The notes beneath the pieces are model-generated. The model worked only from the letters and a program-made list of their open reading frames with translations. It had not been told where the DNA came from and searched no databases. From NCBI GenBank assembly GCA_019454045.1, contig SKCR01032773.1, positions 186,001-250,000 on the forward strand: a DNA stretch of 64,000 nt. The letters run 5' to 3'. The DNA is from Zanthoxylum bungeanum. Taxonomy: Eukaryota; Streptophyta; Magnoliopsida; Sapindales; Rutaceae. A program made the position numbers and the translations under genes. Shown here in pieces: positions 7,953-56,136 of the stretch (within the stretch, counting starts at the first letter, position 1; every line of letters begins with the position of its first letter).

Positions 7953-8445
7953 ATGGGCCAACCGAACAGCTTACAAGACACCCATTGGTATGTCCCCATA
8001 TCAAATAGTGTTTGGGAAAGCATCTCATCTGCCAGTTGAGCTTGAACACAAGGCGTATTGGGCACTGAAGAAGTTGAATCTTGATCCACAAGCTGCAGGA
8101 GAGAAACGACTTCACCAACTCAATGAATTGTATGAGTTTCGTCTACAAGCATATGAGAATGCCAGATTATACAAATGGCATGACCGAAAAATAGTGCACA
8201 GATAATTGGAACCAAGGCAGCAGGTGTTGTTGTAAAATTCAAGGTTAAAACTTTTCCCTGGAAAGTTGAAATCAAGGTGGTCAGGTCCATTTGTGATCAC
8301 TCAGGTTTTACCATATGGAGCTGTTGAGTTACTAGATCCCAACACCAATGAAACATTCAAGGTTAACAGTCAGCGTGTCAAGCACTACTGGGGAGAATCA
8401 TTTGAACGACAAAAAGAAAGTGTCAAACTTTCAGATCCAGCCTAA
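7953..8445 (+). pseudogene. Athila-1 integrase C-terminal end (5'-truncated)
   Basis: Ty3/gypsy Athila-lineage polyprotein end. The frame opens directly at the junction with LTR A and reads [20 protein letters not shown], a typical integrase core end of Athila, followed by the [13 protein letters not shown] block and the SH3-like C-terminal region (GPFVI..., VNGQ-type motif VNSQRVKHYW). In-frame stops are at about 8203 and 8234, so it is dead. After the stop comes the string GCAGGGAGGCAACCC, which commonly follows pol in Athila elements. Everything 5' of this (gag, protease, RT) is missing. The same region in Athila-2 is at 28450-29000 on the minus strand. Confidence 0.85.
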
Positions 8446-8583: not shown

Positions 8584-9066
8584 ATGGAAGAAGTTCTCGC
8601 AAATCTTCATAAGTAATTTTCTGCTCTCCCTCAAAAATCTTTGATGAAAGTCTACAAAGCTCGCTTGGAACGAATGAGGCTACTGATGATCAAAGGTATT
8701 CCAACTGACATTCGTTGGATTATTGAAGCACGGATCCGATTGGCAGGTGAGTCTTCTGACTCTTTTATTTCACATCTGCCTGGTTTAGGAAGAAGCACAT
8801 ATGCTAAAAAGAGAAGAGCCAAAAGAATGTGTGTTTGTTATAAATGTGCTCGTATGTTTGGTGATAATCATTGTCATTCTTTAGGAATGGTGTCTGATAA
8901 CCGCGAAGATAAGATTAATTTCATTAGGGATGGCTTGAGTAAGGAGTCTTTGGATGATATATCTAAAACTCTTGAGACGCATCCCAATGGATATGTGTAT
9001 CACGAAATTCATGTGTTATATGCACAATTCCAAAAGGAAAGACAACAATTAAGTCCGGGAATCTGA
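8584..9066 (+). pseudogene. ORF X, copy 1: unknown Cys/His-containing protein in env position of Athila-1
   Basis: About 160 codons from ATG 8584, with one in-frame TAA at 8614 (aligned residue in copy 2 is Tyr). The rest is open to 9066. The N-terminal third is basic and helical-looking (KVYKARLERMRLLMIKGIP), followed by an Arg/Ser-rich stretch, a cysteine cluster (CVCYKCARMFGDNHCHSLG, about residues 99-117), and a C-terminal part with SLGMVSDNREDKI and ETHPNGYVYHEI. It is about 65-70% identical by eye to the ORF at 27715-28263, so it belongs to the retrotransposon family, not to chance. I do not recognise the protein. It is not an obvious membrane (env) protein: no clear hydrophobic segment. 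Nucleic-acid binding through a small zinc site is possible but speculative. Confidence 0.7.
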
Positions 9067-9380
9067 CTCAAAAAGACCCTGTTTGCCAATTTATAAGAAA
9101 ATTGGATGGGGAGCTTGTCCCTGGCGCATAGACGTCAATCAAGCCGCTACGTTTCTTGTACATATTATATCTCTTTGTCTTTTCCTAATAATTGTGATTT
9201 TTTTATTGTTTTCTTTTATTTTCTCCGACATGATCCAGACCTTTTTTACTATCACGATTTATTTTACTATTTAACTAATAATTTTCATTTGGCCAGTACT
9301 AGTGCTATTATTTTTACTCACCCTTTTCAGGTTTTATAAATTCAATTCATCATTGCACTTTTGAAGGCATCCAGATAAAA
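9067..9380 (+). other. Spacer between ORF X and LOG-like gene, with conserved splice acceptor
   Basis: T-rich, non-coding. Near its end is ACTCACCCTTTTCAGG (9317-9331), conserved in copy 2 (on the minus strand, 27500-27514), each 50-65 bases before the LOG ATG. This looks like a polypyrimidine tract plus AG acceptor. Compared with copy 2, copy 1 appears to lack a block after CAAGCCGCTAC near 9150. Confidence 0.5.
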
Positions 9381-10034
9381 ATGGAAGCCATTTCAAGAAG
9401 ACGAGTTGAAAACATCTGTGTGTTTTGCGGTACTAGTGTTGGTACTAAGCCATAATACGTAGCAGCAGCACAGGAATTGGGACGAGTCATAGCTGAGAAG
9501 AATATGCACCTAGTATATGGCGGAGGCAGTCTTGGACTAATGAGGATAGTTTCAAAGGCTGTACAGGATGGAGGCAGTCAAGTTCTGGGAATCATCCCAA
9601 AACCCTTGGCAGAGGCAGATCTTATAGGATCATCAAATGGAGAAGAACTAATCGTGTCAGGTATGTCTGAACGACTGGTGGAAATGATTAACCGTGCTGA
9701 TGCTTTTATTGATTTACCAGGTGGTTTAGGTACGTTGGAGGAGATTTTTACAGTACTATCTTAGGCGAACTTGAACATACACCAGAAACCAATTGGATTG
9801 TTCAACGTAGATAGATTTTATGATTTTCTTTGTGTATTTCTTGATGATGCCCGGAGAAATGGGTTCGTGTCAAAACCTTTAAAAGAACTCCTCTTCACTG
9901 CCAGAACTGCCCAGGATTTAATTGAACAAATCTTAGCCTATGAACCACAAATTGACCCTATCATTTCCAAGATAAAATGGTCTGATGATGATCGTGGTAA
10001 GAAACGTCGGATAAATATGGATCTTAACCTTTAA
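9381..10034 (+). pseudogene. LOG-like: LOG-like cytokinin phosphoribohydrolase homologue captured by Athila-1 (two nonsense codons)
   Basis: LOG enzymes release active cytokinin bases from cytokinin riboside 5'-monophosphates. The 217-codon frame has the family's order of motifs: ENICVFCGTSVGTKP near the N-terminus, LVYGGGSLGLM, IIPKPL, ADAFIDLPGGLGTLEE (PGGxGTxxE signature) and LNIHQKPIGLFNVD. Length matches plant LOGs (about 210-225 aa). Two in-frame stops break it: TAA at 9453 after GTKP, and TAG at 9762 in place of the conserved Trp of the (S)W.xLNIH motif (TGG to TAG). It starts at the ATG of MEAISRRRVENICVF and ends at MDLNL. No introns, unlike host LOG genes, so it derives from a spliced RNA. 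It sits between the unknown ORF and the 3' repeats of Athila-1. A second copy lies at 26786-27436. Confidence 0.9.
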
Positions 10035-10157
10035 ATTTCCCATTTAGATGTAGAATTTCAGCTAACCAGGTACTATCTTCTAAACTCTTCTTCTACTGTT
10101 TAAGAAATTAGGGACAATGTCTTATTTAGGTTTGGGGGTGGGGAATAGTTGATTAGT
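10035..10157 (+). other. Untranslated spacer after LOG-like gene with internal purine tract
   Basis: Contains GGACAATGTC and a G-rich run GGTTTGGGGGTGGGGAAT at about 10129-10146, which resembles a second polypurine tract upstream of the tandem repeats. The copy-2 equivalent keeps the GACAATGTC block (minus strand near 26700). Confidence 0.35.
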
Positions 10158-10922
10158 ATCTTGTTTGTATTTTGTTTTTATTCCAAAATTTTTCGAAAAA
10201 TACAAAAAAATTAAAAAAATTTAAAAAAAATCAAAAAACTATTTTGTGTTTTTGCGAAATTGGTAAGAGATAGTTGTGTAAGGAGTTTCCACTCTTGAGA
10301 CGTATCTCAAACCTATTTCGAAACAAGTTAATTTTTGTTTATTTCCTTTTAAATTATTTAATTTGTGAATTCTCCATAATACTGACTAAAATGGATCTTC
10401 ATATGCTCAGTTGGAAGTATCTTGTTTGTATTTTGTTTTTATTCCAAATTTTTTCGAAAAATACAAAAAAAATTGAAAAATTTTACAAAAAAATATTTTT
10501 TTGTTTTTGTGAAATTTTTAAGAGATGGCTGTGTAAAGAGTTTCCACTCCTGAGACGTATTTCAAACCTATTTCGGAACAAGTTAATTTTTGTTTATTTC
10601 CTTTTAAATTATTTAATTTGTGAATTCTCCATAATACTGACTATAATGGATCTTCATATGCTCAGTTGGAAGTATCTTGTTTGTATTCCAAAATTTTTCG
10701 AAAAATACAAAAAAAATTGAAAATTATTACAAAAAAATCAAAAACATATTTTGTGTTTTTGTGAAATTGGTAAGAGATAGCTGTGTAAGGAGTTTTCACT
10801 CCTGAGACGTATCTCAAACTTATTTCGGAACAAGTTAATTTTTGTTTATTTCCTTTTAAATTATTTAATTTGTGAATTCTCCATAATACTGACTAAAATG
10901 GATCTTCATATGCTCAGTTGGC
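10158..10922 (+). repeat. Tandem repeat A, three ~250 bp units in Athila-1 3' region
   Basis: Units start at about 10158, 10419 and 10672, each opening TATCTTGTTTGTATT and containing GGAGTTTCCACTC..GAGACGTAT and CTCCATAATACTGACTA. The long reading frame through 10274-10720 is only the repeat translated twice and is not a gene. Athila-2 holds a single unit of this type at about 26390-26560. Confidence 0.9.
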
Positions 10923-11834: not shown

Positions 11835-12057
11835 TGTGATGAGTGATTAATGTATCACTATTTCCACTCATTTGACCTAATATTTTGAATAGATTCTTGA
11901 GTTTTTTGAATATTTTGATGTGATTTGTGTTATTTTGTACATAAATAAAGTTTCAGGACATTCTGGAGGTGACAAAATCGTCTTTTGTCACGACACGCAA
12001 ACCTTCCCGCGTCGTGACGTCTAACGTGCGCCGCCTCATGTTAACATACACCAGAGA

Positions 12058-12465
12058 CACGTGTCGGAATCTAAAAAGCGTGGCTTTACTAACATGCGCC
12101 GAATCTGCTAACGTGTGTCATGCCACGTGTCAACATCAAATCCCATCGCTAACATGCACCGTGCCATGTGTCATTATCCTATGGTGCCGACAATCGCCAT
12201 CGTCATGTGTCGCCACGTGTCACCCCACGTGTCAACCACATCATCGCCATGTCAGTAGAAGACCGAGTCAACTTTGCCACATCACCACCACATCATCATC
12301 AGGCAATCATAGAGCGCCATGTGTCACAATCCTATGGTGCCGACAATCGCTATCGCCACGTGTCGCCACGTCATTGCCATGTCAGCTCAACTATTGAATT
12401 AATCATCTAAAATACCACGTCATCGGATAAGAATCTCGATGGAACCAATCAGAGCGTGACACGTG
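12058..12465 (+). promoter_or_regulatory. Cluster of six CACGTG (G-box) motifs upstream of LTR TATA box
   Basis: CACGTG at 12058, 12124, 12214, 12226, 12357 and 12460, most in the form CACGTGTC, plus several one-mismatch copies (CATGTGTC). In plants CACGTG with these flanks is bound by bZIP and bHLH factors (ABRE/G-box). The TATA box is at about 12524-12530. The Athila-2 LTR has three such motifs (25076, 25110, 25167). Confidence 0.6.
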
Positions 12466-12799
12466 TCCGCGTCACAACGTAAGAACAACTTGCGCGTCAT
12501 GACGCAGAGACCTTATTGACGCCTATAAATTCAGCCCAAAATTTCAGTTTCAGATGTACCTTCCTCTCTGAATTCTCTAATGTAAATAGGGAGTTTTATA
12601 TCTAGTTTATTTTAATTTCAGTTTCGTAATTAATTTTAATTACTTTCTGTAATAATAATTTACTTTCTTTACTTTTCAGTTTTTACCATTCAATATGAGG
12701 AGGTAACTTCCCCCTGCTAGGGTGAAATGTAAATATTTTATTACTGCTATTTAGATTAATCTCCCATAATTATAATATATTTACTATTTAAAACTTGAC

Positions 12800-13005
12800 T
12801 TAACAAGGATACCGCTATATTGGTCGGTTGGTAATCAATTATAAACTGATTTTAAGCTGACTAAGCATGGATACCGCCTGGTTGGTCGGTTGGTAATTAT
12901 CGCCTATATGGCTGGTTTATAGACAAATTGCGATACCGCCTTTATGGTCGGTTGGACTTAATCTGACTTAATCAGGATACCGCCTATATGGTTGGTTGGT
13001 AGGTA
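12800..13005 (+). repeat. LTR minisatellite, GGATACCGCC..GGTCGGTTGG units
   Basis: About five degenerate units of 40-60 bp containing GATACCGCCTATATGG and GGTTGGTAAT. A homologous array with shorter units lies in the Athila-2 LTR (24430-24745, minus strand). Confidence 0.75.
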
Positions 13006-13905
13006 ATATAACACAAGTTAATATATTATATTAAGGGAGATATCTAAAATAGTAGTGATAAAAGTGGATCCTTTTACTCTAGCATTTTATTTTATTGTAA
13101 TTTTACTTTTCAGTATTTACTTTACCGCATTTACTTTTCAGCATTTTACTTTATGTCTTTTATTTTTAAGTTTTTACTAGCCCTAGTTATGTGTCATAAC
13201 TAAGTTAGTTATATGGGATTGTGATGAATTTTAATATCACCGGTTTATAAAGGGTTATTTTATAGTTTGGGTAATTTAAAGGTTTACTTATTAAATCTTA
13301 AACTTAATGCTTCTTATTAACTGGCCACTAATAAGATTGATCTGGTAAATCTAAAATAAACTTGACAAAGAAATTTTAGGTTTTAGCCTTAGACTTAATA
13401 GCCTACGATCTTTCTTAATGATAGATAACCCTTTAATAGATTTCCTTACAGGATAGACATATACCTGTCGGGCGGGGGTAACCATAATTGGAACTTAATC
13501 TTAATGAATCCAGGTAATTTGGTTGACATAGACATATGGTTCAATTGGGTTAAACTGGGTATTTGCATCTGACCATCGACAGAGGCTTTTGCATAATTTC
13601 GTGTTCCAGGTTAGTTTACCGATATATTACACAAACATTACATAACCACTTCATCTTTTAAAAGATATTAGAAAAATTCACAACTCTGGATAGTTTCTTA
13701 ATATTGAATTTTATTTAATTTAATTTTTAGTATTTTTATTTACTTGTTTTTAAGTTTAAAATCATCACCATTTCAAATCAAGCAATCAACCTGTTAGATA
13801 CTAGTAATCATTTGACCTCATAAAATTAATAGATTAGGTATTAAGTCCTCGTGGGATCGATACTTTTTATACTACTTGAACGATACGTGCGCTTGCGTTA
13901 TAGGC

Positions 13906-16187
13906 ATGTGATTACGTCGGTCAAGCCGTTAAAGACATTATCGCCCATGACGATGTCCCTAACGCTAATCTTTCCAGCCATCTCGATTGCAATAGTCCAA
14001 CTATCCAATCAACGATATCGGGTACACTCAAAATGTAATGGTTACTATAGTCCAACTATATAACCAACTACAAGTGGAGTAGTGTCTTGTACAGTCTAAC
14101 TGTTCAAAGAAAGCAATAAAACAATATAAGTCCAACTAATATATTTATAACGACGATAAATAATTAAAAGAGCGCATATTAGCAAGTATTAAACGAAATT
14201 GCAAATTTAATACTGGCCTCCCACTATTTTTCGGCCAGCCTCTAACCCTCCGTGAGTACTCAGGAAACCTAGTTTCCTAGTGGGCTAGGATCCCGTTAAA
14301 TAATAAAAAACCTCGACTTTGGCCAACAAGCTGTATAAGATTTAACTAGGTAGATCTCTAAGATCAATTAGATCCCGTCCAATTCCTAGATCCGGTAGGT
14401 GGACCTCCAAGTCCGAAACATATATCCAATATATCATCTTAACATTTTCCTCTGAATCAACTGAGCCTTGGCTTTGGCTCAACAAGCTTAATGATTCCTG
14501 TTAAGCGCGACCCATTGACAGTGGGAAAACTTTGTAATCCACGTCGATGAATAGAAGTGACCTTGACTTTGGCCAACAAGTCACAACTGCCCAAGACATG
14601 CGATGTATAACAAAGCTTTCATGGTTCAAACACATCCGCGATGGACAATGATCTTGACTTTGGCCAACAAATCAAAGTCAATCTTGGATCTTGAGAAAGA
14701 ACCACTCAATGGAATGAAAACGCTTAATATTAAAGTGAGGGTTTTTCCGTAAATTGGCAACCAATTTATTATCTTTGATTAGGTCTCATCATACACTCTT
14801 AAACATGCATTCTAAAAGCATAATAAGGCGTGATAAAATTAATAATGATATGCGGATGGATATTTAAACAAATTGTTCCTAGAGCAAATCCTCTTTCTCT
14901 CTCCCGCTAGCACTTTACATTCTTCTACCCAATTACATAGTACATAAAGAGACCTCATTAACATTGTGAGGAATTGGTGAGAAGAGAAATACATAGAGAA
15001 TATGAGGTGAAAGGCTGGACACGCAGGTCCAATTTAATAAATAAGTACCATACTTATAACAATTTCCAAAATTGCCCCCACCCGTCTAATATCCATCTGA
15101 TATACATTATTCATATAAATACATCCAAGTATTCACACAAAGCATGTTTTCAATCAATCTATTCCAATTAATTAATCTTCAATTAATGATCATCAAATGT
15201 TCATACAACGATTTGATTTGCGCGAGTCCAACTCGTTTAAGAATAAATACTCAAAGTAAGTATTCTTGAATTATATCGAAATACAATATTAAATCCAATT
15301 TTAATTGTATTCAATACTAATTCTAGATTAATTCCAAGTTAAACAATTACACTTATTTTAATTAATGGCCTTTTAGACTTGGATTCCAAATCCAATCTAA
15401 ATGGGTCTCAAAGGCCCAATTAGCATACAATGCCAATTCAATTTAAGTCCAATGGGCTTTCAATTAATTCTTTAGGCATGGGCTTTGGCCATTATGGATC
15501 CAACCCAAGTTACCAAGGCCCAAGTTAGGAATCACCCTATGCCACAAAATCAATTTAGGCCAATTAAATTTTTAAAGGCCCAAAAGTCATATTTGGACTT
15601 TATGGAAATGGTTTTAGGCCCAATTGGATCTAACCCAATTGTCCAAAATCATACTTGGCCCAACCAAGCCCATTAGCCCAAATACAATAAATTAAATTAA
15701 TATATTATTCCAAATTACATATTAATCTAATTAAAGTGCAATTAACACAATTAATCAATTAATATAATATTTCCAAAATACTAATTAATCCAATTAATCA
15801 TGCTTAAATATTTCAATTCATGTCCAACACAAATTGAAGCAAAATCAACTCATTCAACATGCTTCAAACTCACGGCAATTACATGAAATAACATCCAATT
15901 TTTATTTCAATCCAATTAAATCAACAATCAATATTCATTTCATGCATTTAATATATCCAATTGTCAAATTTCAAAAAACACCATGAGTTCTTCCTAGGGT
16001 AACATTCGGCCATGTCATAAGATTTGGGGAAATTTTTGATCCAATCAATTTCTCAAATCTAATGATGCACAAATCCAATTCATCATCATCTAAACACAAC
16101 CAAACAATCAATTTGGAAAAATCATGCTCCAAGCAAAAATACCCAAATTAAAGTCATGAACCCTAGAATTCAAATCATGCTTAGATT
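13906..16187 (-). mobile_element. Copia copy 2: leader/internal region
   Basis: Collinear with about 1180-3700 of the window (same leader blocks, same CTTGACTTTGGCCAACAA motifs at 14311, 14562, 14653). Non-coding, AT-rich. It is cut at its inner end by the junction with the Athila-1 LTR near 13905, so gag and pol are absent. No independent gene seen. Confidence 0.55.
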
Positions 16188-24109: not shown

Positions 24110-25411
24110 TCAATTCTCATACGCATATTGACACGCTCGAAAAAGTGGTATTTTACTCCCAAATATAAGAGTGTCGAAGTAATAAAATAACCTGGTGAGT
24201 TCGGGGTCGATCCATATATAAGAGATTTAGCAAAATAGAATAATGAACAATGCAGAAATGAAAAGTTTGCTTTGTTGAAGTAGTTGGAGGATTTTAGGTT
24301 GGAATACAATAATGGAAGGAAATGCTGGAGTTAGGGGATCCACTTTTAGTCTTTTAAACATTTAGAAATCTCGCTTTATCATAATTTATAAATTACCATT
24401 TTTACCCACTTAATCTATTACAGGAATTAATTATGCCAATAAAAAGAACCAGTCATAAAAGTGGTAGTCATTTCTGTCAATAATTAGTCCTACCAAGGTA
24501 CTAAGCATGCCAAAAACATAAAACCAGCCATAAAGGCGGTGATACCGTTTGTCTATAACAAGTCCTACCAAGGTACTTAATTATGCCAAAATTGTATAAA
24601 ACCAGACATATAGGTATTGGAAAGATAAAATCAGCCATAAAGGCGGTAGAAAGATAAAATCGGCCATAATGGCGGTAGAAAGATAAAACCGGCCATAAAG
24701 GCGATAGAAAGATAAAACCAGCCATAAAGGCGGTAGAAAGATTGTCAATAATTAATCTAGTATTAAATCAAGTTTTAATCATTAGATTTCAATTTATTTA
24801 TTATAATATAAGCGAGTTTAATCTATGTTTCCATTATAAAAGCTTCACCCTTACCCCAGCATAAAAGAAATGAGCTACTCATTTTGTAATAAAACATACT
24901 CGTACTTTTATTATTGAAATAAAAAGACATTACAAAAACTTTGAGTAAATAAACTAAGAAGACTCTCTCCAAGATTTACAAAGGAATCAGGAAAGAAAGT
25001 ATGAAAATTTCTAATGCCGGACGCTCCTATTTATAGGCAACTTGGCCACCCAGACCAGCGAATGCATGTTGTGGACACGTGTCAGAGAATGGTGAAGCCA
25101 CGTTGGGGACACGTGTCAGAGAATGGTGAAGCCACATTGGGGACACATGTCGCGACGCAAAGGTTCCACGTGTCATGACGTGCTTGCATAATTTCCGTTT
25201 TTTATTATTTTTTTTCACTTCTGATTTGTCCCGTCGAGCTTCCGAGCAGTATTTTTCCTGACAAAAACATAAAATAATACAGTAAAATCACTCAAAGCAT
25301 AACTTTAAAATATTATTTCAAAAATGTGTCAATTTAAGGGGATTAGTGAAACTATAAGTGTAAAATGATTAACTTATCGTCTAATAAATATACACTTTTT
25401 AGTATTCATCA
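24110..25411 (-). repeat. 3' LTR of Athila-2
   Basis: Begins (minus strand) TGATGAATAC at 25411 beside a G-rich polypurine tract and runs to about 24110; the far end is approximate. It has three G-boxes (25076, 25110, 25167), a TATA box TATAAATAG at 25027-25035, an array of ~25-60 bp units with TAAAGGCGGTAGAAAGATAA (24430-24745) and a U5 end near 24120-24200 like that of Athila-1. Two 37-40 bp tandem units containing ACACGTGTCAGAGAATGGTG lie at 25074-25145. Confidence 0.7.
25027..25172 (-). promoter_or_regulatory. Athila-2 LTR promoter: TATA box and G-box repeats
   Basis: TATA box (minus TATAAATAG) at 25027-25035 with CACGTG at 25076-25081, 25110-25115 and 25167-25172, two of them inside a tandem duplication. 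Same arrangement as Athila-1 (G-boxes upstream of TATA). Confidence 0.55.
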
Positions 25412-26190
25412 CACCCCCCCCCCAACCAGCTTATTACTAGTCCTTAGTAATTCAAGCGGAAGAAAAATTATTATCTAAGTCAACAATTGTTTTATTTCTT
25501 TCTGAATGATCAAATAAATGACTTCTCCTATACTTTTTTACCATTCTTCCATATACTCATAAAATAAGGTATTAATCAATATATTGTGCCCACAATATCA
25601 CAGGTATTTATTGAAAAGAGAGTAATATTTTTGTCCTGAAATTATATTAGAGTTTACACATTTTTTGGCAGTGAGAGTTTATTTATAAACATATCTTCAA
25701 TCCATGTATCGAACTTTGGGCCAGTGACTCCCAAACCAGTTCGTTTTAGGGCACTAGGTGTTAAGACACCCCTACAGGCTTAATTGCTCGGATCTCAGAT
25801 AAATAGTGTCTAAAACATATCTTCAATCCGTGTATCGAACTTTAGGCCAGTGACTCTCAAACCAGTTGGTTTTAGGGCACTAAGTGTTAAGACACCCCTA
25901 CGGGCTTAATTGCTCGGATCTCAGATAAACAGTGTCCAAAATATATCTTCAATCCATGTATCAAATTTTGGGCCAGTGACTCCCAAACCAGTTGGTTTTA
26001 GGGCACTAAGTGTTAAGACAACCCTACGGGCTTAATTGCTAGGATCTCAGAGAAACAATGTCTGATTTCCTTAAGCTTTCTTTTTAACCATTGTAACGAG
26101 CTTTGGGCCAGTAATTCCCAAACCAGTTGGCCTTAGGGTACTAAGTGTTAAAACACCCCTTCGGACTTAATTGCTCGGGTTAGAAAGGCT
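25412..26190 (-). repeat. Athila-2 polypurine tract and tandem repeat B, four ~125 bp units
   Basis: The polypurine tract is a run of G on the minus strand (25414-25423) next to the LTR. Repeat units begin at about 25686, 25813, 25938 and 26062, each containing (plus strand) GGGCCAGTGACTCCCAAACC and TTAAGACACCCCTA. The fourth is the most diverged. Homologous to 11046-11280 in Athila-1, which has two units. Confidence 0.88.
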
Positions 26191-26785: not shown

Positions 26786-27436
26786 TTACAGATTAAGGTC
26801 CATGTTTACTTTGCGCTTTTTACCACGATCGTTATCAGACCAGATCAACTTGGAAAGAATAGGGTCGATTTTTGGTTAATAAGCTAAGAGTTGGTCAATT
26901 AAATCATCAGTTGTTCGTGTAGTTAGGAAGATATCTCTTACCGGTTTTGAAATAAACCAATTCCTTTTGGCATCTTCAAGAAATACAAAAAGAAAATCGA
27001 AAAATCCATTAACATTAAACAGCCCAATAGGTTTTTGGTGAATATTCAAGTTTTCCCATGACGCAGTGAATATTTCTTCCAACGTTCCGAGCCCACCTGG
27101 TAAAGCAATGAAAGCATCAGCATGATTGATCATTTCAGTGAGTCTTTCAGACATACCTGGGACAATACATTCTTCTCCATTTGATTTTACGATGATGTGG
27201 CTTTCTGTTAAAGGTTTTGGGATTATCCTCAAAACTTGACTTCCACATTCTTGTACAGCTTTTGAAATACACCACATCAATCCAAGATTGCCACCGCCAT
27301 ATACTAAGTGCATATTTCTGTTTGCCATAACTCTACCCAATTCTCTTGCCCCCTCAACAAATTCTGGTTTAGTTCCGCAGCTAGTTCCACAAAATACACA
27401 GATATTAGTGAATCGTCGTTTTGAAGTTGTCTCCAT
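26786..27436 (-). pseudogene. LOG-like: LOG-like cytokinin phosphoribohydrolase homologue captured by Athila-2 (core open, late stop)
   Basis: Family role: hydrolyses cytokinin riboside monophosphates to free active cytokinin. From ATG 27436 the frame is open for 186 codons, then a TAA at 26876-26878 and 30 further aligned codons to the family stop at 26786. Motifs: NICVFCGTSCGTKPEF, LVYGGGNLGLM (phosphate-binding), ADAFIALPGGLGTLEE (PGGxGTxxE signature with its Glu), W present before LNIHQKPIGLFNVNG. The Lys that normally follows Arg in the M-x-x-R-K motif upstream of the signature is Leu here (MSERLTEM), and also in copy 1 (MSERLVEM). The lost 30 residues lie outside the Rossmann-like core and so may be dispensable. 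Intronless; preceded by a conserved acceptor-like site at 27501. Whether it is expressed or active is unknown. Confidence 0.9.
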
Positions 27437-27714
27437 TTGTGCTACCTCTCTTAGCTAGATGTGTTGAGGAAAGGGAGATGATGAGCTAAATTTATAGATC
27501 CTGAAAAGGGTGAGTGAGAAATGCACTAATATTTGCAAAATGACAACTATCAGAAAAATAGATCGTGAACAAAAAGGTTAGATACTGTCGGCAAAAAGTA
27601 AAGGAAAACAGTAATTTAAAGTAAAGAAAGTCAATGCAATAATATGTACTGGTAGTTGTGATTGTGGCTCACATCTTCCTCTGGTTTTACGTCCAGTAAC
27701 GGCTTGAACGCCCT
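27437..27714 (-). other. Spacer between ORF X and LOG-like gene, with conserved splice acceptor
   Basis: Minus-strand CTCACCCTTTTCAGG at about 27500-27514 matches 9317-9331 in Athila-1, while the flanking bases are less alike. The ATG is 65 bases downstream. The 5' part is T-rich on the minus strand. Confidence 0.5.
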
Positions 27715-28263
27715 CTATGGGTCGGGGATAGGCTTCCCATCCAATTTTCTTATAAATTGGCAAACAGGGTCTTTTAAAGTCAGATTCATGAGACTGTATG
27801 GTTGTCTTTCCTTATGAAATTGTGTGTGTAATCTGAGAATTTCACGATGAACATATCCACTAGGATGCGTCTCAAGAGTCAATGATATATCATCAAAAGG
27901 CTCCTTACTCAGTCCATCCATAATGAATTGTATTTTATCCTCACGATTATCGGACACCATTCCTAAAGAACGACAACGAGTGTTGCACGTACAGCGTGTA
28001 CACTTATAACAAACACCCATTTGTTTAGCCCTTCATTTTTTAGAATAGGTGTTTTTCCCTGAACCAGGCATGTAAGGAATGAAGGAGTCAGATGACTCAC
28101 CTGCCAAACGAACCCTTGATTCGATTACCCAACGAATATCACTAGGAATACCATGAATCATAAGAATTCTCATTCTTTCTGTGCGGGCTTTGTAAATTTT
28201 TATCAGAACATTTCGGGGAAGTGCAGGAAAATATTTATGGAGGGTTGCGAGAGTTTCTTCCAT
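27715..28263 (-). pseudogene. ORF X, copy 2: unknown Cys-rich protein in env position of Athila-2
   Basis: About 182 codons from ATG 28263 with one in-frame TGA at 28033-28035 (the aligned codon in copy 1 is Arg). Order: basic helical N-terminus (KIYKARTERMRILMIHGIP), SSDSFIPYMPGSGKNTYSKK, then VCYKCTRCTCNTRCRSLGMV with six Cys, then SDNREDKI, ETHPSGYVHREI and a longer tail DPVCQFIRKLDGKPIPDP. Copy 1 has the same tail but in a shifted frame. Different stops in the two copies imply that the ancestor was open. No family recognised. A 3' splice-like TTATTTCAG ends at 28299, 36 bases before the ATG. Confidence 0.7.
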
Positions 28264-29013
28264 GCCTTGGTTTGTAGGGTATCAGTATTTTTAGGAAACT
28301 GAAATAACCGACTTGAGTTACGGAGTACCGTTATCCGTTGCTTTACTGGGGTGTGAGATAAAATAAAAGAACAAGAACACTGCAAAACTAAGAAAAATGG
28401 AAATTACAAAAATATTAAACAGCACATGAAAGAAACTACATCAATCAAGGTATACTGGGTTTAACAGGAAAAAAGTTTCTTGAAATTTTGAGTACTCCAA
28501 AAAGGGTTTCAGACGCTGTCCATTTACTTTAAATACATCACCGTCCATAGGATTCTCAATGTTAATAGCCACGTATGGGTAAACGTGTTTCATAATAAAT
28601 GGACCACTCTATTTGGATTTTAACTTTCCAGGAAATAAATGAAGACGAGAATTATAAAGCAAAACCTTTTGACCAACTTCAAATATTTTTCGTGAAATTC
28701 GACTATCATGAAAGGCTTTAGTTTTAGCTTTAAGAATTTTCGTATTCTCATATGAATCATTCCTTAACTCTTCAAGTTCATTTAGTTGCAATTTACGTTC
28801 ATGACCAGAATTTTCAAGGTTTGAATTAAATGCTTTAATAGCCCTAAATTCTTTATGCTCAAGTTCTACAGGCAAATGACAAGGTTTTCCATAAACTAGA
28901 CGATATGGAGACATACCCAAGGATGTTTTGAAAGCTGTTCCATATGCCCAGAGTGCATCAGTTAGTCGAAGAGACCAATCTTTGCTATTTTGGTTAACCG
29001 TTTTTTCTAGAAT
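28264..29013 (-). pseudogene. Athila-2 integrase C-terminal region and spacer
   Basis: Contains the open stretch 28609-28920 with [20 protein letters not shown], the core end of Athila integrases, then broken frames carrying the C-terminal domain to about 28450 (motif VNGQRLKPFL). Between 28920 and 29013 the reading shifts frame. 28264-28440 is a non-coding spacer before ORF X. Confidence 0.8.
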
Positions 29014-29652
29014 TTATTTAATTTCCCTATTTGTTAATTCTACTTGTCCGTTTGTCTGGAGGTGATAAGAGGTGAAAACTTTGTGTGTAACTCCATACTT
29101 TTTCATTAAGGATTCAAAGGGTCTATTACAAAAGTGTTTACCTCCATCACTTATGATGGTCCGAGGAATTCCAAATCGAGTCAACAAGTTTTCTTTTAAA
29201 AATTTGATCACAGTTGTGTGATCATTATTTTGACAAAAAATTTCCTCGACCCATTTTGAAACATAGTCGACTGCAACTAAAATATATAAGAATCCAAATG
29301 ATGTTGGAAATGGGCCCATGAAATCTATCTCCCAACAATCAAAGATTTCGATGACAAGGATGGGATTTAAAGGCATCATGTTTCTTTTTGAAATAGATCC
29401 CAACTTTTGACAATTTTCGCAAGTTTTGCAGAAAGTGTATGTATCTTTAAAAATAGTGGGCCAATAAAATCCACATTGCAAGATTTTTACAGCGGTTTTC
29501 TTATATGAGAAATGACCTCCACATGCTTCTAAATGACAGAATTGAATAACACCACTTATCTCACTGTCAGGAATGCATCGTCTAGAAATCTGATCGGGGC
29601 AGCATTTAAACAGATAAGGATCATCCCAGTAGAATCTTTTGACTTCGGTCAA
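29014..29652 (-). CDS. Athila-2 integrase N-terminal and catalytic domains
   Basis: Ty3/gypsy integrase inserts element DNA into the genome. In this 212-residue open stretch the zinc-binding HHCC module is complete (H..H in [11 protein letters not shown] in CKTCENC), and all three catalytic acids can be seen: Asp in EIDFMGPFP, Asp in IISDGGKHF, Glu in [11 protein letters not shown]. Sequence character ([37 protein letters not shown]) is that of the Athila lineage. The stretch overlaps the end of the RNase H frame by 4 bases, so the polyprotein is frame-shifted between the two. Confidence 0.92.
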
Positions 29653-30215
29653 AAATTTTCTCTTATCTTGTTGGCTCCAAATGGGGGTATCTTTCCTGTT
29701 GCAAGAAAATTGACAATATTAGCATACCAAGGCATTAAGTTTACCGAAAATAAAAATTCATCAAGAAAAAAATCATTGATGGGAGTGGTATCGATTAGTG
29801 ACTCATTTGTGAGTCTCGATAAGTGATATGCAACCACGTTCTTTGCCCTTTTTTTGTCTTTGATTGTGAGATTGAATTCTTGAAGCAACAAAATCCATTG
29901 TATTAATCTTGGCTTGGCATCCTGTTTAAACATCAAATATCTAACAACAGCATGATCAGAGTACACAAAAGTTGAAGAACCGATTAAATATGATCGAAAT
30001 TTATCCAATGCAAATATTACAGCAAGTAGTTCTTTTTCTGTGGTAGTGTAATTCATTTGCGCACTGTTTAATATTCTACTAGCGCAATATATCACATGCG
30101 GCTTACCTTCCTTTCTCTGCCTTAGAACTGCACAAACTGCATAAACACTAACATCACACATTAGCTCAAAGGGCAATGACCAATCAAGGGATTGCATAAT
30201 ATGAGGAGAAGTCAA
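29649..30215 (-). CDS. Athila-2 RNase H domain
   Basis: Degrades the RNA strand of the reverse-transcription hybrid. Reads [20 protein letters not shown] (normally CDASDYAVGAVLGQ; the second acidic residue is changed to Val), [30 protein letters not shown] and the connection AYHLSRL. The 188-codon stretch is open but begins inside the pol frame. Typical gypsy order RT-RH-IN. The Asp-to-Val change suggests that the enzyme is impaired. Confidence 0.9.
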
Positions 30216-31369
30216 AAGACTGATAATTTTTTTGAATGATTTTTGACATTATTCTGTCCATTCAAATGTTGCATCTTTTAATAGGAGGTTACATAAGGGT
30301 CTGGATATGGTACTAAAGTCTTTAATGAACCTCCTATAAAATCTTGTATGTCCTAAAAAAGAACGAATGTCCCTAACTGTTTTGGTGATGGTAATTTAGA
30401 AATGACCTCTATTTTTACTTTGTCAACCTCAATACCTTTAGACGACACAACGTGTCCTAAAACAATTGCTGAATCAGTCATGAATTGGCATTTTTCCCAA
30501 TTTAACACAAGTCATTTTGCTTCACATCTTTTCAAAACATTTTCCAGATTAGTCAAGCAATTATCAAATGAATTTCCAAAGACAGTTATATCATCCATAA
30601 AGACCTCCAAACAGTGTTCAACCATGTCACTAAATATGCTCAACATGCATCGTTGGAATGTTACAGGTGCACTACAAAGTCCAAAGAAAATTTTCCTAAA
30701 TGCAAATATTCCAAAGGGGCGTGTGAATGTGGTCTTTTCCTGGTCTTCTAAAGCAATGGGAATCTGATAATAACCCAAGTAACCATCAAGAAAATAATAA
30801 TAAGGGTGTCCAGCTACTCTTTCTAAAATTTGGTCAAGAAATGGCAAAGGGAAATGATCTTTTCTAGTTGCGTCATTCAATTTTCTATAATCAATGCACA
30901 TACGCCAACTAGATGAAATGTGAGTTGAGATTAATTCCCCTTTATCATTTTTTACAACAGTGATTCCAGACTTTTTAGGTACAACCTGTGTAGGACTTAC
31001 CCACTTACTATCAGAAATATGATAGATAATGCATGCATCAAGAAGTTTAAGGACCTCAGTTTTTACTACTTCTTTCATGTGAGGGTTTAATCTTCTTTGG
31101 AGTTGACGATATGTCCTAGCATTATCTTCTAGATGTATTCGGTGTGTGCAGATTAATGGATTAATACCTTTTATGTCTTTTAAAGTCCATCCAATTGCCA
31201 GTTTATGTTCTTTCAACACATTTAAAAGTTTACCTTCTTGATCGCTTGTGAGAGAAGAAGAAATTACCACAGGGTAAGTTTGATTATCTTCTAGAAATGC
31301 ATATTTCAGTCCTTCTGGCAAAGCTTTTAACTCCAAATTGGGTGCTTCTTCATGTTTTTCTTCTTCCAA
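30216..31369 (-). pseudogene. Athila-2 reverse transcriptase
   Basis: The open stretch 30512-31369 covers RT fingers and palm: SKWVSPTQVVPKKSGITVV, WRMCIDYRKLNDATRKDHFP, GYYQIPIALEDQEKTTFTRP, PFGIFAFRKIFFGLCSAPVT and the catalytic box VFMDDITVFG. After 30512 a TGA and shifted frames carry the thumb (GHVVSSKGIEVDK) to 30215. The D-D pair of the active site is intact. Belongs to the Athila lineage by its flanking motifs. Confidence 0.9.
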
Positions 31370-42934: not shown

Positions 42935-43999
42935 CTAATGGTCATTACCTGGATTGGACTGATTTCTGTTAGTTATGCTAACAGTGAAACTGATATCAGG
43001 CCTTGTACATAACATGACATACATTATGTTACCCAAACACGAAACATAAGGTTGGTTAGACATTCTAACCTTCTCATCTTCTGTTTGTGGACTCATCTTC
43101 TTTGAAAGATGAATCCCATGTCTGAATGGTATATTTGTTATCTTACAATTACCAAAATTATACCGTTCCAAGATCTTATTTATGTACGTTGATTGGGATA
43201 ACCCAATCAGCCTCCTTTGTCTATCTCTATAGAGTTTTATCCCTAAAACATATGAAGCTTCTCCCAGGTCCTTCATGGAGAAATTCTTACAGAGGTACGC
43301 TTTGACGCTTTGTAACATACCTAAATCATTCCCAATGATTAGGATGTCATCAACATATAGGACTAAAAATACGACCATGCTCCCACCGGCCTTCTGATAC
43401 ACACAGGATTCTTCAGAATTCTTGAGAAAACCAGACAATCTAATAATCTCGTCGAATCGAAGATTCCAACTTCGTGAAGCTTGTTTAAGTCCATAAATGG
43501 ACTGCTTAAGCTTACATACCATACCCGAGTTTTCGCTGGATGCAAAACCTTCCGGTTGTTCTATATATATTTCTTCATCAAGAAATCCATTTAGAAAAGC
43601 CGTTTTGACATCCATTTGCCAAATCTCGTAGTCATGATACGCACCTATAGAAAGCAAAATCCGAATAGACTTAAGCATTGCAACTGGTGAAAAAGTTTCA
43701 TCGTAGTCGACGCCAGGTCGCTGCGTGTAACCTTTTGCTACCAGTCGGGCCTTGTAAGTTTCAACCTTACCGTTAGGCCCGCGTTTCCTTTTGTAAACCC
43801 ATTTACAACCGATAGGAACAATTCCTTCGGGAAGCGGAACCAAGTCCCAAACTTGATTCTCATGCATTGAGTCTAACTCGGATTTCATGGCACTTTGCCA
43901 TTTCACGAAGTCGATGTCCAACATCGATTCTCTATAGGTGAAGAGATCAGTCTCTTCAACTAAGAGAACATCCAGACTCTTTTCTTGTATCAAATACAA
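42935..43999 (-). CDS. Nested copia D: reverse transcriptase
   Basis: A 354-residue open stretch with the full copia RT (RVT_2) order: VPIGCKWVYKRKRGPNGKVE, YKARLVAKGYTQRPGVDY, TFSPVAMLKSIRILLSI, WQMDVKTAFLNGFLDEEIY, GLKQASRSWN, and the catalytic box VLYVDDILIIGND. Both active-site Asp are present. It sits in the usual gag-PR-IN-RT-RH order of Ty1/copia. The gag type and long LTRs suggest the Tork/Angela side of copia, but I am not sure. A TGA upstream near 44060 separates it from integrase. Confidence 0.93.
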   Translation of the reverse strand: MYLIQEKSLDVLLVEETDLFTYRESMLDIDFVKWQSAMKSELDSMHENQVWDLVPLPEGIVPIGCKWVYKRKRGPNGKVETYKARLVAKGYTQRPGVDYDETFSPVAMLKSIRILLSIGAYHDYEIWQMDVKTAFLNGFLDEEIYIEQPEGFASSENSGMVCKLKQSIYGLKQASRSWNLRFDEIIRLSGFLKNSEESCVYQKAGGSMVVFLVLYVDDILIIGNDLGMLQSVKAYLCKNFSMKDLGEASYVLGIKLYRDRQRRLIGLSQSTYINKILERYNFGNCKITNIPFRHGIHLSKKMSPQTEDEKVRMSNQPYVSCLGNIMYVMLCTRPDISFTVSITNRNQSNPGNDH

Positions 44000-44626
44000 G
44001 CGTTCAGGAGGTCTAGATAACCTTTCTGACCTATGGAGTGTGTGTGTTGAATGTCATTCATCTACTTGAACTTCAGGTTCCTCCGTTGGTTCGTTGTTTT
44101 CAGGTTGGACTTCATCAAGTTCAACATGTCTATGATTACCTCATTCTGACAAAAATTCTACTTCTAGAAATTTTGTGAAGCGAGCTACGAATAAATTTCG
44201 ATGCTCGGTATCATAGAACAAATATCCCATCATATTCGAAGGATATCCGACGAACCTAAACTTTTGCACTCGAGGCGAAAACTTATCTTGCTGAGTCACC
44301 CTGACATAGGCAGGACAAACCCAAACCTTAATGTAACTAAGATTTGGTCTCCTACCGAACCATATCTCATACGGTGTCGTAGGAATAGCTTTTGAAGGAA
44401 TGTTATTCAAAAGATGTGCAGCTGTTAAAAGAGAGTAGCCCCATAAGTAATAGGGTAAATCTGTGAAACTCAACATTGATCGGACCATATCCAATAAAGT
44501 CTGATTTCTCCTCTTAGATACTCCATTGTGCTGTGGAGTACCTGGAGGAGTATATTGAGCGAGAATCCTATTCTCCTTCATATAATCCATGAACTCACTG
44601 CTCATATATTCACCCCCTCGATCGGA
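44000..44626 (-). pseudogene. Nested copia D: integrase C-terminal half
   Basis: The 154-codon stretch 44141-44605 has TPPGTPQHNGVSKRRNQTLL, RSMLSFTDLPYYLWGYSL, LNNIPSKAIPTTPYEIWFGR and the FVGYPSNMMGYLFYD end. The catalytic Glu of the HNGVxER motif is Lys (GVSKRR), a G-to-A change. The second catalytic Asp is in SDRGGEYM, immediately after a TGA (44624-44626) that replaces an Arg codon (CGA to TGA). 44000-44140 is a broken linker to RT. Confidence 0.9.
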
Positions 44627-44992
44627 TCAAAGGCATTTAATATATTGACCAGTTTGTTTTTCTACTTCATTTCGGAACTCTTTGAACTTTTCAAAGGTTT
44701 CTGATTTATGTCGCATCAAATAGACATAACCGTACCGTGACAGATCATCGGTAAAGGTAACGAAGTACGAATAACCACTGTGAGCAGTCTGACTTAGTGG
44801 ACCACATACATTAGAATGTACGAGTTCCAGTAAGTTAGTGGCGCGGTGTCCAACACCAGAAAATGGGGCTTTGGTCATCTTACCCTGAATACATGATTCA
44901 CAAGTTGGATATGATTCAATGGTGAGATCTGGTATCAAACTATTCCTAACCAATTGGGTAAGGTGTTTAACGCCTATATGACCTAGTCGCAT
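44627..44992 (-). pseudogene. Nested copia D: integrase N-terminal half
   Basis: Zinc module HMRLGHIGVKHL ... CESCIQGKM (H..H, C..C present). The first catalytic position, normally HSDVCGP, reads HSNVCGP (Asp to Asn), a second active-site loss. Then GYSYFVTFTDDLSRYGYVYL. It is joined to the upstream frame by a shift near 45010. Confidence 0.9.
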
Positions 44993-45460
44993 GTGCCAAA
45001 GTTTAGTACTATTAATACAGGTAAACTACGTTTATTAACTCCAGTATTTAAAATATCTTTTGAAGTTTGCAATGTATAATGACCATGCTGGTTTGGACAA
45101 CAAAGGATCTGAATATTACTTTTGTCATACAAATACAAAGAATAGTTCTTAATATTAGTACGAAAGCCTTCTGTATCCAATATAAAAAGTGATATAATAT
45201 TAGCTACACATCCTGGTACAAAATGACAGTCATTTAACAAAAGTGTCCCATTCGGCAATGAGATCTCGCATACTCCCACTACAACTGCATCCAGAGAGTC
45301 TCCACTCCCGAATCATAACTGCATCTCTCCAGGCTTCAGTCTTCTACTTTCCTTCAGCACCTGCAACGAATTGCAAATGTGAATGGGACAAGCAGAATCT
45401 AAAATCCAGATGGATGTAACGGCTTCACAAGCCAAAGATAAATCAATAACTGGAAAAATA
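44983..45460 (-). pseudogene. Nested copia D: protease / pre-integrase region
   Basis: Protease motif WILDSACPIHICNSLQ at about 45400-45450 (the active-site triad normally reads DSG or DTG/DTA; here DSA), then a stop, GSGDSLDAVVVGVCEISLPN, LNDCHFVPGCVANIISL and the pre-integrase stretch HGHYTLQTS. Two frame breaks. Confidence 0.75.
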
Positions 45461-46374
45461 AATGTACCTGATGTAGATGCTCTCTCCCTCCTCAGCTGGG
45501 CAATATAGTCAGGACAGTTCCTTTTCCAATGCCCGACTTTGCTGTAGTGATGGCATTTGTCTTCAGAAACCCTTTTGGGCTTAGCTATCTTTGCCTGTGG
45601 TTGAGGACCGAAACCCTTCTTCTTCTTCCCTTTCTTTTTCTTTCCCTTTGGCCAGGCCTAGGAAGAAGCAGAAAGAGAAGTAGGTCTCGGAGGGCGAGTT
45701 AGTACTCCCTTCTTAAGGTCATCCTCCGCCGTGAGCAACATCCTATGCAACTCATGGTAGGTACAGATAGTCCCGTTCATATTGAAGTACATCACGAACT
45801 AGCGATAAGAAGCTGGGAGTGAACCAAGAATGACACTCCTACCGAGAATGTCATTCAGGATGAGATTATGTTGTCTCAATTGATCGATCAAATCGATCAT
45901 TTGAAGAAGATGCGGGCTTACAGCTTGCCCCTCATCCAACCGCGCATGGAACAGTTTCATTGCAACTTTGTGAACAATCACTTGTTCTTGGTTCTCAAAC
46001 GATTGTCTTAATCGTGTCATCATACGAAACGCATCTAACATACCATAATATTGTTTCTTGAGTCCCGGAGTCAGTGAACTAAGGATGTATGATTTAACTT
46101 TTAAATCATCATCCTTCCAAGATTCAAAAACTTGGGGTTCCTCCAGTGTGGCATCCGCACCCACAACAATGGGCAACAGACCCTCAAGAACATATCTTAA
46201 CTTCTCGGAATTGAGGACAATCCTCAAATCCAAGTCCCAATCAGTGACGTTCTCTGCGCCTTTAAGTTTGTTCGCATCAAGCATACGCGCAAACTGATTA
46301 GTGAATGGTCCCACCATCGCAAATCTATCATATAGATCACGAAAAACGGTTAGCAGATATTTAAGTAGTTTCAT
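45461..46374 (-). pseudogene. Nested copia D: gag (nucleocapsid) protein
   Basis: The open part 45799-46374 (191 codons) is a copia gag (UBN2-like): WKDDDLKVKSYILSSLTPGL, QYYGMLDAFRMMTRL, KLFHARLDEGQAVSPHLLQM, GSLPASY. After a stop at 45796-45798 the frame continues with FVMYFNMNGTICTYHELHRM, the Lys-rich KGKKKKGKKKKGFG linker and a zinc knuckle KCHHYSKVGHWKRNC whose second Cys is Tyr (CX2C changed to CX2Y). Broken by at least two stops. Starts at the ATG about 700 bp from the primer site. Confidence 0.88.
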
Positions 46375-54453: not shown

Positions 54454-56136
54454 TGTAACACCCCGGATTATTTTTACCCATATTTTATTTTATTATTTTT
54501 GGTGGATAGAATTTTGAGAATTAAATTATTAAATTGGGGAAGTTGGAATTAAAAAGTGGTTAAGGACAAGTGTAGGGTGGCAAACGAATTGTGCCATATT
54601 ATTATATATTATTATTTTACACTGTTAGCATTTACGAAAAGGAAAGAAAGAAAATAAATGAAGGAAAGTAAAGAGATAAGATAAGAAGGAAAATAAGAAA
54701 TAAAGAAAAAGAAGAAAGAAAAGATAAGAGACAGCAGACGCGTAAGAAGAGAAAGAAAGAAATAATAAAGAAACAAAAATAATAATAGAAAGAGATAGAA
54801 TAGAGGAAAGAGAAAGAATAGAAAAGTGAGATATACTTGAGTCAGAGAGAGAGGGACGTGAGGCAGAGGAGAGAAAGAAAGAGAAAAAGAAGGAAAAGAG
54901 AGGAAATTTAGTTTTAGTCCCGATCCGACCAATCCGTAGCTCAAATCCGACTGAGTCCTTAAGGAAAAGTGTAGATCTCGACAAGGGGATCATTTTGGTG
55001 GTGGTTTCATCTTGGGAAACTTCCAATTTTCAGAGAAATCTCGGTGATCATGATTTTGTAAGCGGGGACGGTCCTGCTACCTAGTTCCTTTCTCAGTAGT
55101 CAGCTCACCAGGTGCGTGGATAAACCTGTAACATTGATGTTTTCAAAAGTATATAGTATGTATGTTTTCTTAAATGAATTTTAAGGTAATGCATTAAATG
55201 AGTTTGATTTTAGAAAGTTTATATTTTTGCTATAAGGTATGGATCGAATATTGATTATGTTGAAATCATGTGTTTGTGATATATGAGAAACTTGCATGAT
55301 TTGAGATATATGAGCATGGGTTTGAAAATGATTTTTATGTTAGGATGCACCCCGTGTACTTATATGTGCCAGATTATTGCCATGAGATAAGGTCTCATGT
55401 TGCCAGTTATTGCCGTGAGATAAGGTCTCACGTTGCCAGTTTGCTCCGGATGCCAGTTTTGCCGTGGGGAAGCCCCATGTTGCCAGTTTTGCCGTATTTG
55501 TCATGAGGTTGTGCATATAGATAAATAAACAGATTTATCATTACAGAGTATTTTTGAGCAGTATGAGTTTTATGAGAAATGAGATTTTGATTTGAGTTTT
55601 ATGAGAAATGAGTTTATGAGAAATGAGATTTATGATTTCAAGTAAATGTTTGAGATAACGATTTACAGCTTATGTAATATATATATTATGAAAGACTTGT
55701 TCGATCCACTTTGTTACTTGATTATCCACGACACTGAGCTGTGATCCATTGCACTAAGCGTGAGCTTACCCCCCATTCCTTAACATTTCAGGTTCAGCAG
55801 TTTAGTAGATCATCTTTTCCATCTGCTATTTCGTCATCATTTCCTGCCAGTAGAGAAAGGTTGTGCCAACAGTAGAGTGTCTTTGTTATGTATTTTCTTG
55901 GAAGAATTTGTTGTCTAATGTTAGGCATTGAGCCTTATTTGTTATTGAGGATATTGTGTTTCCTTTATGGATATTATGTTGAGTTGGATCATGGAGATCC
56001 TAGTTTTATGATGATAAGATATTTTCAGTTTAGATTTTTCCTTGTATTTGGAGGATTAGTCCATATTACAGGGGAAACTCTGCCAGTTTCTAGTCTCCGT
56101 CTCACCCCTACCCTACCTAAGGGGACGGGTGTGACA
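54454..56136 (+). repeat. 5' LTR of chromovirus-like element
   Basis: TGTAACACCCCGG to GGGTGTGACA, 1683 bp; ATGGG duplication at 54449-54453 and 59939-59943. It contains a ~270 bp purine-rich tract (54640-54910) and two 30 bp units with TTGCCGTGAGATAAGGTCTC around 55376-55440. The TGTAACACCCCGG start is typical of Tekay/Del chromoviruses. Confidence 0.95.

Follow-up and report, generated by a model that had tools for sequence, protein, structure and literature searches.

In 2011 Steinbauerova et al. reportedly found LOGL4-like extra ORFs in two Athila-like elements. A LOG (YgdH) domain has also been reported in LTR-element consensuses from Citrus sinensis, C. clementina and the unfiltered set of Populus trichocarpa, a result said in the relevant parts of PMC9289625 to agree with that earlier survey (Steinbauerova et al. 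2011). Because YgdH in LTR elements of Citrus and Populus had thus been published, LOG as a cargo is not the novelty for which an earlier note on the present DNA had taken it. Those elements resemble the ones described here in bearing a LOG domain within a plant Gypsy-type element; the parts of PMC9289625 concerned leave unmentioned a viral-type neighbour, a test of selection on LOG, a splice site and a non-autonomous LOG family, and those of its main text do not name a viral nucleic-acid-binding protein. The same parts describe Ty3/gypsy elements of orchids that contain an AlkB m6A demethylase domain, which is also found in flexiviruses; here again a cellular-type enzyme is carried by a plant gypsy element, although both enzyme and host are different. 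On the viral side, the passages of PMC12172455 on cysteine-rich proteins describe those of carlavirus type as silencing suppressors, and those of mandariviruses and allexiviruses as possessing a nuclear localisation signal and a zinc finger; the chrysanthemum virus B protein is presented there as a hyperplasia-inducing transcription factor. Neither LOG nor carlaviruses come up in the passages of a review on the additional ORFs that plant LTR elements carry (PMC7264820), and in the parts of PMC5967125 concerned ‘Athila’ and ‘carlavirus’ occur only in a virus list and in the references. In the titles and abstracts searched, with subscription journals mostly outside that scope, nothing was found that joins a viral nucleic-acid-binding protein to a retrotransposon or to Athila. 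As far as the literature was searched, the viral-type neighbour, the evidence of long purifying selection, the huge family and the LOG-carrying non-autonomous family appear to be new. The reading that we prefer, and to which as a whole we give a probability of about 0.6, is that an Athila-like lineage of eudicots acquired, kept and uses both of the accessory genes described below.

The window is a stretch of 64,000 nucleotides of the Zanthoxylum bungeanum genome (contig SKCR01032773.1). It holds two elements, copy 1 and copy 2, both truncated at the 5' end within the window: copy 1 begins inside its integrase, and copy 2 a few hundred bases 5' of its reverse transcriptase. Their features are as follows.

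7954..8442, plus strand: C-terminal part of the integrase of copy 1, where the 5' truncation falls (sequence comparison).
8584..9132, plus strand: ORF X of copy 1, broken near both ends; its open piece, 8641-9063, matches PF05515 (2.2e-8) and PF01623 (7.7e-6).
9324..9330, plus strand: splice-acceptor-like TTTTCAG of copy 1; the interval up to the LOG start contains no ATG.
9381..10034, plus strand: LOG homologue of copy 1 (lineage A) with two in-frame stops, 86% identical to P0122.
10155..10921, plus strand: 3' array of tandem repeats in copy 1, with a period of 255 (repeat analysis of the sequence).
11837..13925, plus strand: 3' LTR of copy 1, bounded by alignment to the LTRs of locus L038.
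24110..25411, minus strand: putative 3' LTR of copy 2, its outer end taken from the earlier note and its inner end set by eye from the polypurine tract, both on this one LTR with no second for comparison.
25687..26178, minus strand: 3' array of tandem repeats in copy 2, with a period of 126 (repeat analysis of the sequence).
26786..27436, minus strand: LOG homologue of copy 2 (lineage B), matching PF03641 and 92% identical to P0121.
27501..27507, minus strand: splice-acceptor-like TTTTCAG of copy 2, 64 nt 5' of the LOG start codon, with no intervening ATG.
27715..28263, minus strand: ORF X of copy 2 with one in-frame stop, from alignment to P0004 and relatives; putative homologue of carlavirus-type nucleic-acid-binding (cysteine-rich) proteins.
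28609..28920, minus strand: C-terminal part of the integrase of copy 2, from tblastn with the L001 integrase ORF; taken alone, it reaches no Pfam cut-off.
29014..29652, minus strand: integrase of copy 2 (H2C2 and core domains), PF00665 3e-16 and PF17921 5e-12.
29649..30215, minus strand: RNase H domain of copy 2, PF17917 2.8e-32.
30512..31369, minus strand: reverse transcriptase of copy 2, PF00078 3.7e-18.

The LOG homologue that the earlier note had placed at 26786-27436 is indeed one, as judged by PF03641; its orientation had to be corrected, since gene and element lie on the minus strand and frame 1 of the plus strand has stops throughout. The site of the cargo, 3' of a gypsy-type integrase and of ORF X, is the same in both elements, and so is the order integrase, ORF X, LOG, 3' repeat array and LTR, as that note had described. 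The order in copy 2 of reverse transcriptase, RNase H and integrase (PF00078, PF17917, PF17921/PF00665) is that of gypsy-type elements. There are extra ORFs 5' of the 3' LTR, as for Athila membership, and the related non-autonomous copies L033 and L034 have a primer-binding site, TGGCGCCGTTGCCGGGG, of the TGGCGCC... kind, which we take to be typical of Athila. The elements thus look Athila-like, a label drawn from the layout, the primer-binding-site-like motif of related copies and the earlier note, and not from a reverse transcriptase tree. Elsewhere in the window, a Ty1/copia-type element lies in pieces on the minus strand at 42935-46374 (RVT_2 at 42935-43999, 1e-73; SH3_retrovirus at 44141-44605; a copia-type gag at 45799-46374). 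Two ORFs of 133 and 137 aa, also on the minus strand (54625-55026 and 58412-58825) and 3.8 kb apart, are nearly identical over their first ~40 residues (MEVSQDETTTKMIP...) and so represent a repeated unit.

The 3.96-Gb assembly, of 51,709 contigs, was searched for further copies. The best 150 candidates of the Pfam LOG search all match the domain over 1-131 or 1-130, and 147 of these score-picked matches have no stop inside it; the best 150 from a search with P0121, an intact relative of copy 2, all match LOG along the whole query or almost all of it, at 87-98% identity, and 47 of them are stop-free. Uninterrupted full-length LOG copies therefore exist elsewhere in the genome, unlike the two in the window. 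The LOG-bearing elements fall into two lineages, A (the type of copy 1) and B (that of copy 2). A motif of 33 bases taken from ORF X of lineage A has 7,436 matches in the genome with at most two mismatches (reversed control, 0). As to the linkage of the two genes, with 1.5 kb of flank, ORF X lies upstream in 23 of the best 30 LOG loci, which are of lineage A and include two pairs with identical LOG, and integrase is present in 16; with 6.9 kb, 13 further loci give 13 for ORF X and 11 for integrase; and lineage-B loci drawn down the ranking have ORF X in 15 of 15. The remaining seven of the best 30 (L032-L038) lack ORF X even within about 10 kb. The earlier note had named in advance, as one outcome that would count against it, that LOG be confined to these two copies; this did not occur, all 150 candidates of each search being LOG, and together with the 7,436 ORF X motif matches this rules out mere segmental duplication of two copies.

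There is evidence that LOG entered the family before lineages A and B separated. The interval between ORF X and LOG aligns between copies 1 and 2 with a score of 169 (best of 200 shuffles, 66) and the stretch following LOG with a score of 106 (best, 61). Because LOG is thus flanked on both sides by sequence that is homologous in the two lineages, it was probably captured once and then copied family-wide, as the earlier note had proposed. A relative, L001, has the end of an integrase and an intact ORF X, yet LOG is absent from its remaining 983 bases, so LOG would be dispensable for some relatives; L001 may either never have had the gene or have lost it. (L001 1-3330 is plant retroelement sequence within a public Candidatus Nomurabacteria genome bin, that is, contamination.) The LOG-less L001 aligns with the flank that follows LOG in copy 1 (score 81) and with that preceding it in copy 2 (score 165), in each case with none of 200 shuffles reaching the score; the alignments with the flank following LOG in copy 2 (score 64, 11/200 shuffles) and with that preceding it in copy 1 (score 69, 16/200) are not significant. 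In lineage A, a short direct repeat, CAGGTAYTAT, precedes LOG in at least 19 of 35 copies and follows it in at least 13 of 35; it is not seen in lineage B. L001 carries its counterpart, CAGGTAATAT, once. The repeat and its single counterpart hint at the site of LOG insertion, and loss of LOG in L001 would look alike.

ORF X was the env-position ORF of the earlier note. An env-like identity was dropped in favour of a nucleic-acid-binding protein (NABP) on account of the matches to PF05515 (Viral_NABP) and PF01623 (Carla_C4), which point instead to flexivirus nucleic-acid-binding proteins. The PF05515 cut-off of 23 bits is passed by copy 1 and by four of the five intact relatives tested (L001, 3.3e-8; P0004, 7.7e-7; P0006, 1.9e-6; P0095, 1.9e-6). 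P0071 has only a match of 16.5 bits to PF01623, below the cut-off of 20.9, and copy 2, searched as two separate open pieces, matches no Pfam family. A protein search gave 280 relatives; among the 120 listed, each has a precomputed PF01623 match and most also have PF05515, many are 182 aa long, and Xanthoceras, Populus, Acer, Rhamnella and Orobanche are among the hosts named. Searches beyond plants gave no confirmed viral contig (IMG/VR) for relatives of NABP or of LOG, and no near match among plasmid sequences. The conserved features of ORF X are a KKRRAK stretch and four cysteines. It is unlike the viral cysteine-rich proteins in its 182 residues, in an extra conserved C-terminal half, in being borne by a retrotransposon and in the spacing of its cysteines, which is C-x2-C-x4-C-x3-C and in the viral proteins C-x2-C-x12-C-x4-C. 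It shares with those of carlaviruses, allexiviruses and mandariviruses the basic stretch followed by a cysteine motif, and the PF05515/PF01623 families (PMC12172455, in its passages on these proteins). Structure prediction of ORF X gave low confidence on both of two occasions (pLDDT 63.8 in the later one), and the low-confidence model had no match at E <= 0.001 in a library of viral folds (best E, 0.14). Among the six top rows, which are non-significant and not independent of the sequence, five are plant-virus proteins that suppress silencing or bind nucleic acids, presumably all from flexiviruses; chrysanthemum virus B, potato virus H and sweet potato chlorotic fleck virus are among the viruses in the top rows.

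Thus, ORF X resembles the nucleic-acid-binding or cysteine-rich silencing-suppressor proteins of flexiviruses closely enough to be regarded as their putative homologue. Alternatively, it might be a zinc-finger gene of retroelements that happens to look like these profiles, or the viruses might have taken the gene from a retrotransposon. The profile match is partial, with nothing above cut-off for the copy 2 pieces or P0071, and this, the different cysteine spacing and the non-significant fold result speak for such an alternative; against it stand the several members that exceed the cut-offs of both PF05515 and PF01623 and, with the dependence on sequence just mentioned, the viral proteins that make up five of the six best fold rows. 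We consider a non-viral origin of ORF X unlikely, though the strongest of the alternatives to the preferred reading, in which the gene is of viral type.

The second accessory gene is recognised more readily. The LOG of copy 2 matches PF03641 with an E value of 9.5e-30, and the domain is covered completely (1-131 of 131). Copy 2 is broken by a premature stop at 26876-26878 and is one codon shorter than P0121; copy 1 is broken by its two stops within a frame otherwise of full length. P0121 itself is an uninterrupted protein of 217 aa, the nearest solved structure to which is that of Arabidopsis At2g37210 (2a33; E 9.8e-59). The element LOG is like the plant enzyme in homology over the whole length and in most residues of the catalytic motif, and unlike it in belonging to an element, in forming a sequence clade of its own and in its uninterrupted 217-codon frame; cellular plant LOG genes contain introns. 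The PGGxGTxxE motif and Arg98 of LOG have catalytic roles. The motif is conserved in the element copies with exceptions in single copies; among the other motif residues, Gly48 is kept in 31 of 37 lineage-A copies and Gly117 in 13 of 16 of lineage B, and Arg98, Glu120 and Glu121 are retained in every readable copy (A, 37/37; B, 16/16; non-autonomous, 12/12). The element LOG can accordingly be described as a putative cytokinin riboside monophosphate phosphoribohydrolase.

In a tree of 123 proteins, in which the cellular members are LOG1/LOG3-type and LOG8, those 104 of the 120 best matches of the P0121 search that a length filter retained make up a single clade (support 0.944), separate from both cellular groups. 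It takes in proteins of Populus, Xanthoceras, Reevesia and Paulownia, known here as protein sequences alone. The parental host LOG was not found among the LOG1/LOG3-type and LOG8 members of the tree, and in other plants there may have been several captures from another cellular LOG clade beyond those included. It might be supposed that LOG is selected in the elements for a different job, in which the SLOG fold acts on nucleotide pools or RNA-related substrates. That the fold binds nucleotides, that the clade is divergent from the cellular groups and that two database relatives, P0126 and P0130, have glutamine at the conserved Arg98 position would all suit such a role; the presence of Arg98, Glu120 and Glu121 in every readable copy examined, and of the other motif residues in most, argues against it, and we regard a changed function as rather improbable. 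The preferred reading keeps LOG as a cytokinin-activating enzyme, and the sequence upstream of the gene suggests how it might be expressed. In 54 of 64 copies, TTTTCAG is present within the 130 nt that precede the LOG start (31/35 in lineage A, counting the 35 of 37 copies with a placeable LOG start; 11/16 in B; 12/13 non-autonomous), a count taken without a chance control. In 52 of the 54 no ATG intervenes, and in all 11 of the lineage-B copies that have it the distance is 64 nt. This position fits a spliced subgenomic RNA for LOG and is not by itself evidence of splicing.

Selection was assessed between the window copies, which were not picked by score, and between and within lineages. For copy 1 against copy 2 (NG86), LOG has dS 1.62 and dN 0.167, hence dN/dS 0.10; NABP has dS 1.05 and dN 0.19; and the integrase has dS 1.98 and dN 0.42, a ratio of about 0.21. 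The high values of dS are near saturation. Between lineages A and B the mean dN/dS of LOG is 0.116 (592 pairs) and the dN/dS of NABP 0.287 (523 pairs). Neutral decay, with a ratio near 1, is therefore not seen in LOG; it was the other outcome that the earlier note had named as refuting its reading. Within lineages, changes shared by two or more copies were contrasted with singletons, as nonsynonymous to synonymous changes per site (N/S). The shared and singleton values are 0.27 and 0.63 for LOG in lineage A, 0.35 and 0.71 for LOG in B, 0.55 and 0.91 for NABP in A, 0.57 and 0.79 for NABP in B, and 0.21 and 0.54 for the integrase in A. The lineage-A set of 37 used in these counts and in dN/dS held two identical pairs (L006/L007 and L019/L020), so some singletons were counted as shared. 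Codon-model omega for LOG is 0.22 for A and B together, 0.25 for A and 0.56 for B, and for NABP 0.41-0.47. Stop-free LOG is found in 27 of 37 lineage-A copies and 10 of 16 of lineage B, and an uninterrupted full NABP in 9 of 37 and 3 of 16. Since these A and B copies were chosen by LOG score, the intactness and constraint of their LOG are inflated; NABP and integrase were not chosen by their own scores. LOG dN/dS is low, the constraint on NABP is weaker, and within families it is weak. Both genes nevertheless show signs of long-kept selection, suggesting some benefit to the element from each.

The seven loci without ORF X (L032-L038) also lack reverse transcriptase and integrase, have LTRs or parts of LTRs on both sides, and keep LOG (L032:6418-7068, plus; L033:2799-3449, minus; L034:4068-4715, plus). 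They carry a gag-like ORF; that of L033 is 418 aa long, contains a CxxCxxxHxxxxC motif and has no Pfam match. L033 and L034, read by eye, have the primer-binding site together with a decayed remnant, or scar, of ORF X. A pattern made from the scar has 1,226 matches in the genome with at most two mismatches (reversed control, 0), so that copies could also be sampled independently of LOG: six were taken from the 100 places listed, all of them exact matches. LOG follows in all six, extending for at least 211 codons in five and being cut after 46 in the other (L069); it is stop-free in three, and none is fully intact. Between the paired LTRs of L032-L035 and of L038 the Jukes-Cantor distance (JC) is 0.02-0.11, a range that leaves out the nested or partial pairs of L036 and L037. 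Among the seven copies found by score, shared N/S is 0.58 for the gag-like ORF and 0.23 for LOG; among the six picked by the scar it is 0.27 for LOG, from eight synonymous and seven nonsynonymous shared changes, with a codon-model omega of 0.44. L069 is included in the shared and singleton counts and was removed by the gap filter from the LOG tree and codon model. In the LOG tree the non-autonomous copies do not form a single clade and are intermixed with lineage A, so exchange with full elements is likely, and such recombination may keep their LOG readable without selection of its own. The idea that LOG in this family is under its own selection is weakened by the same mixing.

The least probable of the alternatives is that LOG is a passive passenger, picked up by template switching and copied without benefit between essential cis regions: the many broken copies, the LOG-less L001 and the possible explanation of readable non-autonomous LOG by recombination are in its favour, and against it stand a LOG dN/dS lower than those of NABP between lineages and of the integrase in the window, and the lower shared N/S of LOG than of the gag-like ORF in the non-autonomous copies found by LOG score, to which the scar-picked copies add a similarly low value from few changes.

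The preferred reading can thus be set out as a scheme. An Athila-like Ty3/gypsy lineage of eudicots would have gained two accessory genes between integrase and 3' LTR, one of the flexivirus nucleic-acid-binding or cysteine-rich type, of 182 aa, and the other a host LOG that was spliced and hence intron-less. Judging from the acceptors directly upstream, NABP and LOG would be made from spliced subgenomic RNAs. By analogy with their families, the viral-type protein would damp RNA silencing of the element, act in the nucleus, or both, and LOG would free active cytokinin where the element is transcribed; cytokinin would then favour dividing, meristem-like cells, in which new copies of the element are inherited. 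A stronger version is that the two genes form a long-kept set for manipulation of the host, in which a suppressor or nuclear zinc-finger protein and a cytokinin enzyme let the element evade silencing and push division, and in which LOG alone is worth keeping for derivatives that have neither polymerase nor integrase; this we put forward tentatively and think somewhat doubtful. If the dS of ~1.6 is read at usual plant rates, the set would have been retained for tens of millions of years.

It is largely an open question whether plant LTR elements are served by the cellular-type genes that they carry. Here a hormone-activating enzyme and a homologue of viral-type suppressors adjoin in a family of thousands of copies, with marks of selection. 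Should both proteins function, retrotransposons would rank with viruses and pathogens among the manipulators of hormone signalling and RNA silencing.
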